From Actinomycetota bacterium (GTDB lineage Bacteria > Actinomycetota > CADDZG01 > JAHWKV01 > JAOPZY01), in assembly GCA_025963875.1 (NCBI GenBank), contig JAOPZY010000162.1, positions 1-43,988 of the forward strand: a DNA stretch of 43,988 nt. Direction: 5' to 3'. The position numbers and the translations under genes are program-made. A model generated the notes under the pieces. That model did not search any database. It was not told where the DNA came from and saw only the letters and a list, made by a program, of their open reading frames with translations. Below are positions 8,629 through 13,555 of the stretch, in pieces; within the stretch, counting starts at the first letter, position 1, and each line of letters begins with the position of its first letter.

Positions 8629-10059
8629 GTGGCGGAACGGCGGGAACCGACCCAGACGTCGCGCTTCGGCGTCTCCCGCCGGGAGAACCACGACGCCAGC
8701 GCCTTCTATGCGCGGTTCACGCCCCCCAAGCTCAGCGCGGACAACGCAGTCCACCCAGACAAGGCCATCGACGAGATCTTCACCGGCGACGCCCGCGAGA
8801 TGAAGCATGTCCCCGATGCGTCGGTGGCGCTTGTGGTGACGTCGCCGCCCTACTTCGCCGGCAAGGAGTACGAGGAGGCCCTCGGGGAGGGCCACATCCC
8901 GGCCACCTACCTCGAGTACCTGCAGATGCTGGAGGACGTCTTCGCCGAGTGCGTGCGCAAGCTGGAGCCGGGCGGGCGCATCGCGGTCAACGTCGCCAAC
9001 CTCGGCCGGCGGCCGTACCGGTCGCTGTCCTCGGACGTCATCGGCATCCTCCAGGACAAGCTCCGCCTCCTGCTGCGCGGCGAGGTGATCTGGCAGAAGG
9101 CCCGGGGCTCCTCCGGCTCCTGTGCCTGGGGATCCTTCCAGCGGCCGGCCAACGCCGTCCTGCGTGACCTGACCGAGCGGGTGGTCATCGCCAGCAAGGG
9201 CCGGTTCGACCGTGCCCTGACCGCCCGTCAGCGGCACCGTGAGGGCCTGCCGTCGTCGGCCTCCCTCTGGCGCGACGAGTTCATGGAGGCCACCACCGAT
9301 GTCTGGGAGATGCCGCCGGAATCGGCCACGCGGGTCGGCCACGCCGCCCCCTTCCCGGTCGCCTTGCCGAGGCGGCTCATCCACCTGTACACCTACTACG
9401 ACGACCTCGTCCTCGACCCCTTCATGGGCTCGGGGACCACCGCGGTGGCAGCAATCGGGACGCGGCGCCATTTCGCCGGCTACGACATCGACGCCGCCTA
9501 TGTCCAGAAGGCCCGTGCCCGTGTCGCCCATGCACTCCAGCAGCGCGCCGGCCTTGACGAGGAGACGCTTTCGGTCGAACTCCCGGCCATCCCGGCGAAG
9601 GCCCATCCCGACGAGGACTTCCAGGCCCGGGCGGTCCGGGAGGGCCGGGCGGCCCGGGACGTGGCGGAGGCACTCCTGCACCAGTGCGGTTTCGAGGGAG
9701 TCCAGCGCAAGGTGCGCCTCCCGGTGGGGGTCGAGGTCAACTTCCGCGCCTACGACCGGGACGGCGGCGAGTGGTTCTTCGACGTGTCCGGCGGCTTCAC
9801 CTCCACTCGCCCGGGGCTCATGCGCACGGACACGCTCTGGAAGGCAGTGGGGAAGGCGGCGGTTCTCCACGAGGCGTACCCCAGGATCCCGCTGGTCCTG
9901 CTCACCACGGACTCGCCGAAAGGCGGGGCGGGCGGGGCGGCGCTTCGGGTGGTGCGTGGCCCCGACAAGCCCATCTTCGACGTCCTGCAGATGACGTCCT
10001 CGACCGATCAACGCAAGCTCCATGCCTACGCGCACGGGGTCCGGCCGGAGGGGACCTGA
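8629..10059 (+). CDS. Beta-class DNA methyltransferase fused to a degenerate nuclease-like domain
   Basis: 476 residues from GTG 8629, chosen because GGGAG lies 7 nt upstream. An upstream GTG at 8587 is possible. Motif IV TSPPY (about residues 70-74) precedes motif I DPFMGSGTT (about 263-271), the order of beta-class N4-cytosine or N6-adenine methyltransferases. The region between should bind the target. After about residue 335 comes a 140-residue extension that aligns without gaps over its core with the stand-alone protein at 10423-10842, sharing RPGL, RTDTL and a PD-(D/E)XK-like layout. In this fused copy the expected D and K positions are N and S (segment FFDVSGG), so it should not cut DNA. 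It is the first gene of a tight three-gene unit. Confidence 0.9.
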   Translation: MAERREPTQTSRFGVSRRENHDASAFYARFTPPKLSADNAVHPDKAIDEIFTGDAREMKHVPDASVALVVTSPPYFAGKEYEEALGEGHIPATYLEYLQMLEDVFAECVRKLEPGGRIAVNVANLGRRPYRSLSSDVIGILQDKLRLLLRGEVIWQKARGSSGSCAWGSFQRPANAVLRDLTERVVIASKGRFDRALTARQRHREGLPSSASLWRDEFMEATTDVWEMPPESATRVGHAAPFPVALPRRLIHLYTYYDDLVLDPFMGSGTTAVAAIGTRRHFAGYDIDAAYVQKARARVAHALQQRAGLDEETLSVELPAIPAKAHPDEDFQARAVREGRAARDVAEALLHQCGFEGVQRKVRLPVGVEVNFRAYDRDGGEWFFDVSGGFTSTRPGLMRTDTLWKAVGKAAVLHEAYPRIPLVLLTTDSPKGGAGGAALRVVRGPDKPIFDVLQMTSSTDQRKLHAYAHGVRPEGT

Positions 10060-10066
10060 GGCCCCG

Positions 10067-10426
10067 TTGGGTGCATCCGGCGGGACCCTGGGTTGGCCCG
10101 GCAGGGTCGCCGTCGGCGTCCTCCACGGCGACACGCCCGAGGTGTTCCTTGCGGAGTCCGATGCCGTGCTGGGCCGGCTCCTCGCCCTCCGGCTCGTGGG
10201 GCCCTCCCGCCCGGAGGACTTCGGGCCGGGGATCCTGGAGGAGATCCGGTCCGCCCTCCTCGAGCAGCGCTGGGCGGACGCCGTGACCGCGTGGATGCTG
10301 GCATCCGGGGAGGTCCTCGACGGCTACCCCGACGAGGAGGTCGTCACCGAGGAGATGCTGGACGACGAGCGGGCCTCGATGGAGATCCGGCTCTCGCCGA
10401 TCTTCGGCGGCCAGGCCGGCCCGTGA
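10067..10426 (+). CDS. Small acidic helical protein of the methyltransferase cassette
   Basis: About 119 residues from TTG 10067, where GAGG lies 5 nt upstream. The same frame opens at ATG 10022, which would overlap the methyltransferase by 38 nt and give 134 residues. A short strand-rich start (VAVGVLHGD) is followed by acidic helices such as DAVLGRLLALRLVGP, GILEEIRSALLEQRW and EEVVTEEMLDDER. I do not recognise it. Its stop codon overlaps the GTG start of the next gene. That coupling suggests it works with the nuclease, for example as a subunit, an inhibitor or a controller protein. Confidence 0.75.
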   Translation: MGASGGTLGWPGRVAVGVLHGDTPEVFLAESDAVLGRLLALRLVGPSRPEDFGPGILEEIRSALLEQRWADAVTAWMLASGEVLDGYPDEEVVTEEMLDDERASMEIRLSPIFGGQAGP

Positions 10427-10842
10427 GCCTCTTCCAGTCGGCCGCTTCCCTGCAGGGGCGCCAGTTCGCCGACCAGTGCGACCTCCTGCTCCGCAACTCA
10501 GGCTACGAGGTGGGCTCCCGGGTGCTGGTCACCACGATCGGCATCGAGATCGACCGAGAGGCGGTCAGTCCCACCGGGCGCATCATCTGGTTCGAGTACA
10601 AGGGCAGTGTCCAGGGGTCCCGGCCGGGGCTGCTTCGTACCGACACCCTCAAGAAGGCCATCGCCAACGGGGCACTCCTCAAGGCCATGGGGGACCGGCC
10701 CCCCTTCGTCGTGCTGACGTCCCATCTGCCCGAGGCGGGGGCCGGGCTCGCCATGCTCGAGACCGCCGTCGCGCTCGGCTACCTCGACGACGTCATCTGC
10801 GTCTACAAGCCCGCCGACACCGTCCGCCTCAAGCGCCTCTAG
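10423..10842 (+). CDS. Putative PD-(D/E)XK restriction endonuclease, paralogous to the methyltransferase C-terminus
   Basis: 139 residues from a GTG overlapping the previous stop (GTGA). An N-terminal helix (QFADQCDLLLRNSGYE) leads into GIEIDREAV with Asp44, then WFEYKGS with Glu58 and Lys60. This is the D...ExK arrangement of PD-(D/E)XK nucleases. SRPGLLRTDTL follows, nearly identical to the methyltransferase C-terminal segment, then FVVLTSHLPEAG. At 139 residues it is a bare nuclease core with no visible DNA-recognition domain, so specificity may come from the fused methyltransferase. No database search was possible. The nuclease assignment rests on motif and context. Confidence 0.78.
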   Translation: MSLFQSAASLQGRQFADQCDLLLRNSGYEVGSRVLVTTIGIEIDREAVSPTGRIIWFEYKGSVQGSRPGLLRTDTLKKAIANGALLKAMGDRPPFVVLTSHLPEAGAGLAMLETAVALGYLDDVICVYKPADTVRLKRL

Positions 10843-10857
10843 AGCCTTCGCCATGAT

Positions 10858-10906
10858 CTTCTTTGGGTGAATAACGCTGATATACGTTGTTCATCACCCA
10901 AAGAAG
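10858..10906. terminator. 49-bp imperfect palindrome between convergent genes
   Basis: CTTCTTTGGGTGA (10858-10870) pairs perfectly over 13 bp with TCACCCAAAGAAG (10894-10906). An inner AACG/CGTT stem surrounds an AT-rich loop. It lies 15 nt after the cassette stop and 7 nt before the end of the opposite gene, so a bidirectional terminator is the simplest reading. It is noticeably more AT-rich than its surroundings. Confidence 0.65.
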
Positions 10907-10913
10907 GTCCGCC

Positions 10914-11930
10914 TCAGAAGTTCTGCTTGGCGCCCGGCCCCTTGGTCTTCCAGCCGTAGACCCGTTGCGGGCCGCAGCTCCCCGTCCGGGGCGGCAGCTC
11001 GATGACCTCGGGCACGGGGTGGCGGAAGGAGGCTTCGAGCAGCGGGGCGGGATCCTCCCCGGCGCTCATGGCCAGGCAGGGCGCCACGAAGGCGCACGGG
11101 CCGCAGTGTTCCGGGGCCGGATCGGGGTAGATGGGCACCGCCGGGTCGCACATCTCCAGCGCAGCCGCTGCGAACTGACGCCGGAGTCGCCGGATCTCCT
11201 TGGGCGCCTTGCGAATCCGGGCCCTCCGGAACCACCCGTCGGGGTCCCCGACGACGGTGACGCCCCGGCGCCTCGGTCCCGCCGTGAACGCCATGGACGG
11301 CGCCGGCGGTCCCGGCGCCAGGCGGAGCTCGTTGATCATCACCCCGGCCACCGGCGCGTCGTACTGGGACTCGAGCGCCCAGCACAGGCAGGCGCTGCGG
11401 TGATCGAGCACGAGGGTGTCGAGGTCGGCCCACTCGCCGTCGACGATGCGGTGCTCCACGAGCCACAGGCGGTGGTGCTCGTCGACGACCACCAGCTCGA
11501 AACGGCCCCGGAACCGCACGGCTCTCCCGTCGGCGGCCACGAGCCCGGCCCCCGCCTGCGCGGGGTGGGGGACGACGACGTTGAACTCGGTGGTGACCCG
11601 CACGGCCGAGAAGTCGTCCACGCCGGGGGCCCAGTCGAAGTACCGAGAAAGCGCCAGGGCGCCGCGCTCGGTCGCGGACGCGTCGGCGTGCTGGGCACGC
11701 ATCGACTTGTGGAACGCCTCCATGGCGATGGGACGCACGAGGGAGCGGTCCCAGCCGCGCATGGCCGGGAAGTACCAGGCAGCGAGACCGTCGCGGACGG
11801 CCCGCCCCACGTCGACGGGCCGGAGCGGCTCGACGGGCTCCAGGTTCTGCCGTGCCGCGGCGCCGAAGTCCCATGCCCGGCGGCACCGTTGGAACGTCTC
11901 TGCATCCGTCAGGTCGATGACGTGGTCCAT
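10914..11930 (-). CDS. RecB/Cas4-like PD-(D/E)XK-fold protein with four-cysteine cluster, degenerate active site
   Basis: 338 residues. The layout matches Cas4/AddB/phage-type nucleases. There is one Cys near the N-terminus (FQRCRRAW, about residue 15) and a C-terminal Cys group ending HCGPCAFVAPC (about 280-290), which would bind an iron-sulfur cluster. The nuclease core RFRGRFELVVVD then LWLVEHRI carries Glu where motif II usually has Asp, and Arg where motif III (ExK) has Lys. The helix with LVLDHRSACLCWAL occupies the QxxxY region. Cleavage activity is therefore doubtful. It might bind DNA ends or be a variant nuclease. The ATG at 11930 is the best start. The long frame upstream is antisense shadow. 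Confidence 0.82.
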   Translation of the reverse strand: MDHVIDLTDAETFQRCRRAWDFGAAARQNLEPVEPLRPVDVGRAVRDGLAAWYFPAMRGWDRSLVRPIAMEAFHKSMRAQHADASATERGALALSRYFDWAPGVDDFSAVRVTTEFNVVVPHPAQAGAGLVAADGRAVRFRGRFELVVVDEHHRLWLVEHRIVDGEWADLDTLVLDHRSACLCWALESQYDAPVAGVMINELRLAPGPPAPSMAFTAGPRRRGVTVVGDPDGWFRRARIRKAPKEIRRLRRQFAAAALEMCDPAVPIYPDPAPEHCGPCAFVAPCLAMSAGEDPAPLLEASFRHPVPEVIELPPRTGSCGPQRVYGWKTKGPGAKQNF

Positions 11931-11980
11931 GCCAACGGAATGGTACCCGCCGGGCTCGCCTCTGCCGCCGCCCGAAGAGG

Positions 11981-13555
11981 TCAATGTGTGGGGTCCACGT
12001 CCGGCGGGAACAGGTGGGCAACCACCGGTGGGCCCTCTGCAAGCGCCAGCGCCGCCTTCTGGAACTCGCGGTCCGTCCCGGTCATCCGCCCGGTGTGCTG
12101 GCGGAGATGCTCCTCCCAGGACCGCACGAGGTACAGCTCCACGAACCGCCGGGGTTCCTCGCCGTCGCGGTAGAGCTCCCAGCGGACGGCGCCGGTCCGG
12201 CGACGGGAGCGCCGCACCCTGTCCATGGCCTGGAGGAAGGCCGCCGCGTTCTCCGGAGCCACCGTGTACGTCAAAGAAACGAGGACCGGTTCGTCCGCCG
12301 CCGGCTCCAGCACCATGTGCGGCTCCGGCCAGTAGACGGCGGGACTGCGATCGAGGCCGCCGACGTCGGCGAGCGGCCAGCGCACCAGCGCCAGGGCGCT
12401 CAGTCCCAGCAGCCCGCCGGCGATGCGCAGGGCCCAGGCCACGCTGGACTGCTCGGCGACGAGTCCCCACCCGGCGGAGGCGACGGCCATGCCGCCGAGC
12501 AGCACGATCTGGTAGATGGAGAGGCCACGTGCCCGCACCCAGCCGGGGAGAAAGAGCTGCATCTCGGCGTTGAGGGTGGCGAGGACGGCGATCCAGGCGA
12601 GGCCCGCCGGCACCAGGAGCAGCGCCACGATGGGCGTCGATCGTGTGGAGGCAAGGGCCGCCATCACGGCGGCGTAGGTGCAGAAGGCCAGGAGCAGCAT
12701 CCGGGCGTCGCTCAGTCCCGCCCGCAGCCGGGGCAGGGCGATGGCGCCACCGACCGCGCCCACGCCGAGGGCGGCGAGGAGCACGCCGTAGCCCCCGGCG
12801 CCGAGACCGAGCCGGTGGCTCGCGACCACCGGGAGGAGGGCCCAGATGGCGCTCCCCGGGATCGAGAACAGGGCGGCGGTGAGCAGGATGCGCCGGACCA
12901 CCGGGGAATAGCGGATGTAGCGGGTGCCGGCGAGCAGGGCAGCCCCGAGGCGCTCCCGGCCCTCCCGGACCGCGCGAGGAGGGTGCCAGGCCGCCAGCAC
13001 GATGGCGAAGGCCACGAAGGACACAGCGTTGAGGCCGAAGACGGCGCTGGCCCCGAGCCTCGCCACCGCGGCTCCGGCCAGCGCCGGCCCGACGGCCCGG
13101 GCAAGGTTCTGGTTCATGCCACCGAGCGCCGACGCGGACGCGAGGTCGGCCCGGGGGACCAGGTCCGGAATGATCGCCTGCTGGGCAGGCAGGCTGAAGA
13201 TGGCCCCGCAGCCCAGCAGGAACGTCAGCCCGAGCAGGAGGGCAGGGTGCAGATTGCCCCTGGCCGAGAGCACGGCCATCACCCCTGCCACCACCGTCTG
13301 GAAGACCTGGCTCCCGATGAGCAGGCGCCGCCGGTCGACGATGTCGGCGAGCACCCCTGCGGGAAGGGCGAAGAGCACCACCGGGAGGGTCGTGGCCGTC
13401 TGGACCAGGGCGACGAGGGCCGCAGCATTGGGCTGGTGGACCAGCAGCCACTGGGCACCCACGGTCTGCATCCAGGTCCCGATGTTGCTGACGAGGGTGG
13501 CGATCCAGATCCAGCGGAACATCGTCAGGCGGAGCGGCTTCCAGGCCGAGTCCAC
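11981..13555 (-). CDS. MFS exporter with C-terminal monooxygenase-like domain (EntS/MFS_3 type)
   Basis: 524 residues from GTG 13555, chosen because the next residues (DSAWKPLR) match the usual start of this family and a G-rich site precedes it. About twelve hydrophobic segments span residues 15-410, with the MFS loop motif LADIVDRRRLL near 70. The last 100 residues form a soluble ferredoxin-like antibiotic-biosynthesis-monooxygenase-type domain (LVSLTYTV, RWELYRDGE, HLRQHTG), a fusion typical of this MFS group. The substrate is unknown. The gene starts 41 nt after birA and reads in the same direction. Confidence 0.9.
   Translation of the reverse strand: MDSAWKPLRLTMFRWIWIATLVSNIGTWMQTVGAQWLLVHQPNAAALVALVQTATTLPVVLFALPAGVLADIVDRRRLLIGSQVFQTVVAGVMAVLSARGNLHPALLLGLTFLLGCGAIFSLPAQQAIIPDLVPRADLASASALGGMNQNLARAVGPALAGAAVARLGASAVFGLNAVSFVAFAIVLAAWHPPRAVREGRERLGAALLAGTRYIRYSPVVRRILLTAALFSIPGSAIWALLPVVASHRLGLGAGGYGVLLAALGVGAVGGAIALPRLRAGLSDARMLLLAFCTYAAVMAALASTRSTPIVALLLVPAGLAWIAVLATLNAEMQLFLPGWVRARGLSIYQIVLLGGMAVASAGWGLVAEQSSVAWALRIAGGLLGLSALALVRWPLADVGGLDRSPAVYWPEPHMVLEPAADEPVLVSLTYTVAPENAAAFLQAMDRVRRSRRRTGAVRWELYRDGEEPRRFVELYLVRSWEEHLRQHTGRMTGTDREFQKAALALAEGPPVVAHLFPPDVDPTH

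Follow-up and report, generated by a model that had tools for sequence, protein, structure and literature searches.

The window analysed here, a stretch of 43,988 nucleotides, raises a question at positions 8629-10842, in DNA belonging to a 3.84-Mb draft genome: why does a DNA methyltransferase (MTase) carry a nuclease fold that has lost its catalytic residues, with an apparently active relative of that fold (NUC) encoded in the same unit, behind a small orphan protein (MID; Table 1)? Drawing on the observed gene order, homology and fate of the catalytic residues (lost or retained family-wide), and on co-occurrence, mutual exclusivity and swapping on the MTase tree, we favor, with a probability of roughly one half, a restriction-modification (RM) module similar to type II, in which the fossil nuclease of MTase is a DNA-reading or dimerisation domain and the nuclease partner can be exchanged. 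In such a module MTase would mark the host's own target sites, probably at N4-cytosine, NUC would cut the same sites when unmarked, and MID may be an accessory of MTase.

Table 1. Positions of the genes and sequence elements of the unit in the window.
Feature	Position	Strand	Basis
Beta-class DNA methyltransferase (MTase), 476 aa, GTG start	8629-10059	+	PF01555 N6_N4_Mtase, E = 3e-35
MTase motif IV, TSPPYF (TSPPY = residues 71-75)	8839-8856	+	Sequence
MTase motif I, DPFMGSGTT, SAM-binding (residues 263-271)	9415-9441	+	Sequence; conserved in relatives
Catalytically dead nuclease-fold C-terminal domain of MTase (residues 331-441)	9619-9951	+	Homology to NUC
FDVSG, degenerate (D/E)XK site in the dead domain (FEYKG in NUC)	9778-9792	+	Alignment, 22 NUC and 38-49 fused domains
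MID, small orphan protein, start at TTG 10067 or ATG 10022	10067-10426	+	ORF; no family match
NUC, stand-alone PD-(D/E)XK protein of 139 aa, predicted active endonuclease, GTG start	10423-10842	+	Model, fold matches, invariant D44/E58/K60
NUC active site, D44 ... E58-x-K60 (GIEID ... FEYKGS)	10552-10602	+	Sequence and alignment
RPGLLRTDT loop of NUC (residues 67-75); RPGLMRTDT in the dead domain (residues 394-402)	10621-10647	+	Alignment
Intergenic hairpin of the convergent genes, likely terminator at the end of the unit	10855-10909	.	-30.7 kcal/mol, z = -6.2

The three genes and their surroundings

A preliminary description of the locus had proposed a three-gene cassette whose last gene starts inside the preceding stop. 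Indeed, all three ORFs were recovered, co-directional and closely spaced between a divergent and a convergent neighbour, and the GTG of NUC (10423-10425) overlaps the TGA of MID (10424-10426); the alternative ATG of MID would yield a 38-nt overlap with MTase. The flanking ORFs are metallo-hydrolase/rhodanese-like and PDDEXK_1-like, respectively. Only three ORFs lie between the two neighbours, none of them an ATP-dependent translocase or helicase, and a type III RM system (Mod/Res) was discarded since its Res helicase ORF is absent from the unit. The convergent neighbour (10914-12173, reverse strand) matches PF12705 (PDDEXK_1) at E 2e-4, just under the cut-off. Its usual DxK site seems to be absent (LVEHRIV), cysteines are present at the C-terminus, and it is possibly another inactive nuclease-fold gene facing the unit.

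The placement of MTase in the beta class, already suggested in the preliminary description, stands, as motif IV precedes motif I and the Pfam match is strong. PADLOC assigned the protein to MTase_II (PDLC03350, 4.5e-85, residues 2-306), and its closest solved relatives are TTHA0409, A. vaga N4CMT and CcrM (Foldseek matches including 2zie and 6pbd). T71, S72, P73, P74 and Y75 are invariant across 35 relatives. By established motif rules the SPPY form suggests N4-cytosine as the target base of MTase. In the window's class, represented by a small sample of 24 genomes, 20 hold a match to the NUC fold, nearly all of these being the MTase with its dead domain. An MTase so close to universal and passed on vertically resembles a housekeeping mark rather than a mobile gene for defence, which counts against the restriction module.

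The AlphaFold2 model of NUC (pLDDT 87.9) adopts an alpha-beta-beta-beta-alpha-beta layout, and a Foldseek comparison with the PDB returned the PD-(D/E)XK proteins EndoMS, BsoBI, EcoO109I, XisH and Hjc, with weak E-values (best 4e-3) and probabilities that were mostly high, near 1. Searches for families of NUC and MID in Pfam, PADLOC, NCBIfam and PHROGs returned nothing. The preliminary description had also stressed that NUC lacks a recognition domain of its own, a point that is not decisive: PvuII (157 aa), like other small PD-(D/E)XK restriction enzymes, reads DNA within the nuclease fold. NUC would most simply be a small homodimer of this kind, reading DNA through its own fold.

The fold matches also bear on a role in repair or maintenance, where NUC would nick mismatched or damaged MTase sites in a Vsr-like manner, or degrade DNA in another housekeeping role. 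Congruent with this, the mismatch nuclease EndoMS is among the best matches, MTase is almost universal and vertically inherited within the window's class, and a cyanophage homologue of NUC belongs to a replication module, where its neighbour is an endonuclease V gene. Membership of NUC in the Vsr or EndoMS-NucS family was however rejected, with no match in Pfam or NCBIfam and a likeness to EndoMS at the level of weak fold similarity. Moreover, MTase is a TSPPY enzyme of the beta class, whereas Vsr repair evolved for m5C enzymes, and the swapping among three nuclease families described below fits restriction better, rendering a repair function improbable.

A dead nuclease domain within the methyltransferase

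Residues 331-439 of MTase can be aligned with NUC over 109 aa (38% identity, E = 6e-20), well beyond chance, which upholds the homology claimed previously for the two proteins; when NUC was searched against its own genome, the dead domain was the second-best match. We then compared 82 domains in one alignment, including 22 stand-alone NUCs, five viral homologues and 49 MTase-fused domains. D44, E58 and K60 are intact in all 22 NUCs and all five viral homologues. Among the 49 fused domains the lysine is never present, the column being occupied by S (35), A (7), T (2), C (2), G (2) or V (1), while D44 is kept in 9 and E58 is replaced by D in 42 and kept as E in 4. The contrast of a dead fused domain and a stand-alone nuclease with an intact site, as read from the single locus in the preliminary description, thus holds across the whole family.

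The erosion spares the RxGLxRTDT loop, with R67 retained in 48, G69 in 49, R72 in 47 and D/E74 in 49 of the 49 fused domains, and its survival in dead copies argues that the dead domain retains something besides catalysis. Being common to both proteins, the loop is a candidate DNA-reading element. The same conservation can be read as recruitment. NUC, lacking specificity, would then form a heterodimer with the dead domain and cut or nick DNA at unmodified sites engaged by MTase, in analogy to type IIT enzymes with their non-specific small subunit, except that the recognising partner would be MTase. Homology between NUC and the dead domain and a non-catalytic loop conserved in both are in line with such docking, as is the retention of the loop in 34 of 35 MTases with a nuclease partner versus 10 of 14 without. 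A precedent is furthermore provided by BsrDI, BtsI and BspD6I, the small subunits of which lack sequence specificity (PMC4081073), R.BspD6I2 being one of the weak fold matches of NUC. Faster evolution of the dead domain where NUC is missing was also sought, but the ratios of C-domain to MTase distance revealed no clear relaxation (1.67 with NUC, 1.66 with c3, 1.46 with c4, the latter two being the alternative nuclease candidates introduced below, and 1.77 with none).

In a tree of the domains, the fused dead copies form one group (91/99) separate from the live NUCs; the tree has few columns and moderate support, and the fused label needs three changes, owing to L068 and a contig-truncated row. 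This topology fits a history in which the NUC fold was fused to MTase and inactivated once, long ago. The dead domain would accordingly be an ancient copy of NUC that lost catalysis once and was kept for DNA reading by MTase, for dimerisation, or for both.

The locus L068 deviates: its dead domain is encoded on its own, next to a domain-less MTase and c3. A frameshift (a TAG followed by a GTG 2 nt later) is disfavored, because the two parts group apart on the trees: the MTase with the domain-less L050 and L051 (98/94), the dead domain within the fused clade. Their placement in different clades favors recombination. A dead fold standing alone beside a domain-less MTase and another nuclease candidate also counts in favor of recruitment.

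Linkage and exchange of the nuclease partner

Close homologues of NUC were found in 18 named genomes, mostly Actinomycetota/Acidimicrobiia, all 18 of which also encode a dead-domain MTase. The two genes lie within about 5 kb in 11 of these genomes and 12 to 20 kb apart or on separate contigs in the other 7 (about 14 kb in Aquihabitans sp. G128, for example, with MTase at 3,246,815-3,248,236). The order MTase-MID-NUC is present in eight loci, the window and seven others, so that the trio proposed in the preliminary description is indeed conserved. Loci were ascertained through the NUC-fold search, except those of c3, c4 and MID, which come from independent searches. MID occurs in 7 of 397 genomes of the phylum, each time immediately downstream of MTase, and all seven are dead-domain MTase genomes. 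Where NUC is unlinked from MTase (L036, L037, L038, L040, L041 and L045) it often sits in a conserved neighbourhood, with a penicillin-binding transpeptidase gene common to several, and these conserved surroundings suggest vertical inheritance.

In the same 397-genome sample, a dead-domain MTase was detected in 32 genomes, of which just G093 and the window's genome encode a live NUC; the remaining 30 lack NUC, although some may be incomplete drafts. Conversely, in G047 and G059 a live NUC adjoins an MTase without the dead domain, and neither genome holds a further NUC-fold match. Thus, NUC is not confined to dead-domain MTases, as recruitment would imply; NUC seems not to need the dead domain, which is in turn kept where NUC is missing. 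The proposed restriction-modification or defence role gained support from the conserved RM-like unit, the dead fused domain and the conserved live partner, while heterodimer recruitment did not hold as a general rule. Active-site-intact NUCs beside domain-less MTases (G047, G059 and the viral contig L125), the persistence of the dead domain despite the absence of NUC in 30 of its 32 genomes, often beside other candidate nucleases, and the lack of linkage in 7 of 18 genomes make recruitment, the main rival of the favored module, on the whole unlikely.

In 13 of the 32 dead-domain MTase genomes none of NUC, c3 and c4 is present, and in some of these 13 purB or a DNA ligase gene follows MTase. 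This would agree with an orphan epigenetic MTase whose C-terminal domain, as in CcrM, binds DNA non-specifically, the adjacent nucleases being remnants of successive and mostly decaying RM systems. CcrM, which possesses a C-terminal DNA-binding domain (PMC6787082), is a Foldseek match of MTase, and in one clade NUC has decayed beside c4. The catalytic residues of NUC are however invariant in 22 of 22 proteins, so that NUC is no remnant where present, and its co-occurrence with MTase is perfect; we therefore hold an orphan enzyme with leftover nucleases to be distinctly improbable. As a separate observation, an ORF resembling, by eye, an ATP-dependent DNA ligase is located directly behind the dead-domain MTase of G147 (L143:5874-7301).

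Comparison of the neighbours at NUC-less MTase loci uncovered the two further gene families, c3 and c4, neither of which matches Pfam; PDB sequence searches with NUC, c3 and c4 gave chance matches or none. The first, c3 (about 350 aa), is positioned directly behind MTase or MTase-MID, the place of NUC in the window. With a PADLOC model of type II restriction enzymes, five of six members show a weak match (best E 1e-3), and on this slight similarity c3 may be a nuclease. Members include L064:5734-6750, L062:3541-4578 and L055:4140-5240 (alignment A5), with conserved VDHVYLVSCKY and RWSHG-PEAK motifs. In c4 (about 190 aa; L053:7253-7840, L052:3953-4540, L190:1207-2073 and others, alignment A6), an invariant D and (D/E)-x-K of the PD-(D/E)XK type are present.

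The searches retrieved c3 from 8 of 397 genomes, once as a fragment, and c4 from 9 of 357; each of the 17 encodes a dead-domain MTase, in G136 with the dead domain as a separate ORF, and none of the 17 a live NUC. Naive hypergeometric probabilities for the co-occurrence of MID, c3 or c4 with the dead-domain MTase range from 1e-8 to 1e-10, ignoring kinship. As apparently intact nucleases, NUC, c3 and c4 are mutually exclusive and never occur together, and on the MTase-domain tree their labels require at least 10 changes. With MTase, and presumably its target, fixed, the nuclease gene could be exchanged. The slot would then be filled by NUC in the window and by c4 or c3 in relatives, and be empty in others, leaving an orphan MTase.

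The presence of a dead NUC fold in every c3 or c4 genome is at the same time a point for recruitment, and in a wider form MTase would be a fixed self-marking platform, the pseudo-nuclease domain of which docks NUC, c3 and c4 interchangeably, with target choice residing in MTase and the cutter as a plug-in. We regard such a platform as tentative and on the whole unlikely. The type II-like module that we favor has its own weak points, namely the lack of NUC-MTase linkage in 7 of 18 genomes, the 13 of 32 genomes without a candidate nuclease, and the weak support for c3 and from Foldseek.

The NUC clade of the window is sister (99/93) on the MTase tree to a clade that combines c4 with a decayed stand-alone NUC, the active site of which is lost (FEYKG to LLARG). 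These LLARG homologues adjoin c4 in four genomes of the sister order group (L059:4033-4527, L060:4058-4549, L155:1942-2355 and L157:6132-6629). They are a possible intermediate of nuclease replacement.

Described systems and viral homologues

In the papers searched, no RM system was described whose MTase bears a dead homologue of the partner nuclease; the preliminary description likewise knew of none with this layout. Pseudo-enzymes are well known in other pathways. Closest are type II (IIP-like) systems such as PvuII, where an MTase is likewise paired with a small PD-(D/E)XK nuclease. Judged from the genes, typical type II features are present here (an MTase encoded with a candidate endonuclease, an intact predicted nuclease site and no helicase), and the MTase-NUC pairs of L050, L051 and the viral L125 resemble plain two-gene type II systems. 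In the window, however, MTase holds a dead nuclease-fold copy, MID intervenes, and relatives fill the nuclease slot with unrelated families.

Type IIT enzymes (BspD6I, BtsI and BsrDI) share two unequal nuclease folds and a small subunit possibly without specificity of its own (PMC4081073), but have two different active sites and separate MTases, whereas here one fold is dead in 49 of 49 cases and lies within MTase. Type IIG/IIB enzymes similarly join MTase and nuclease fold in one chain; in type IIG the fused nuclease is active, unlike the domain described here, which is dead in 49 of 49 and C-terminal on a beta-class MTase, and a single-chain system of type IIG/IIC was rejected on this ground. 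The Orc/CDC6-HerA neighbourhoods, which combine an inactive REase on the ATPase with an active one belonging to one or the other of two families, offer a parallel for a constant inactive fold with exchangeable active partners, yet the carrier there is an AAA+ ATPase with no modification enzyme, and here it is a DNA methyltransferase (PMC10853773). CcrM and TTHA0409 share the MTase core fold, and CcrM has a C-terminal DNA-binding domain as well; that domain is however not described as a nuclease fold, and TTHA0409, at 297 aa, lacks one altogether. DraI, the m4C system of Deinococcus, was rejected as a match, as it consists of an alpha-class MTase and a GIY-YIG nuclease. For its Acidimicrobiia genome, the methylome of Lake Biwa reports neither a motif nor an MTase.

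If the dead domain reads DNA, a modification enzyme would have inherited the specificity module of a restriction enzyme, and the matched specificity of the two proteins is directly testable. If it instead docks nucleases, the unit would represent a modular platform for restriction in which cutters can be exchanged. None of NUC, c3, c4 and MID is annotated in Pfam, and three candidate nuclease families tied to one MTase clade can now be tested together.

A search of plasmids for NUC found none, and that of phages one true homologue. The viral contig L125 encodes a plain beta-class MTase without the dead domain, directly followed by a live NUC. Cyanophages S-CAM3, S-RIM32 and S-H9-2 share a conserved pair of a 'restriction enzyme' and a beta-class MTase (L129:3492-4762, L130:2489-3759 and L131:2489-3759); the proteins of S-CAM3 and S-RIM32, annotated as type II restriction enzymes, were compared with NUC and dismissed as homologues. 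The true phage homologue, from Synechococcus phage Sf-FR1 (PV340855.1; L124:5986-6384), has an intact active site and is annotated as a NO VEIN C-terminal domain; its gene cluster, devoted to replication, also contains a Dam-like MTase, adjacent to the nuclease gene as is that of endonuclease V.
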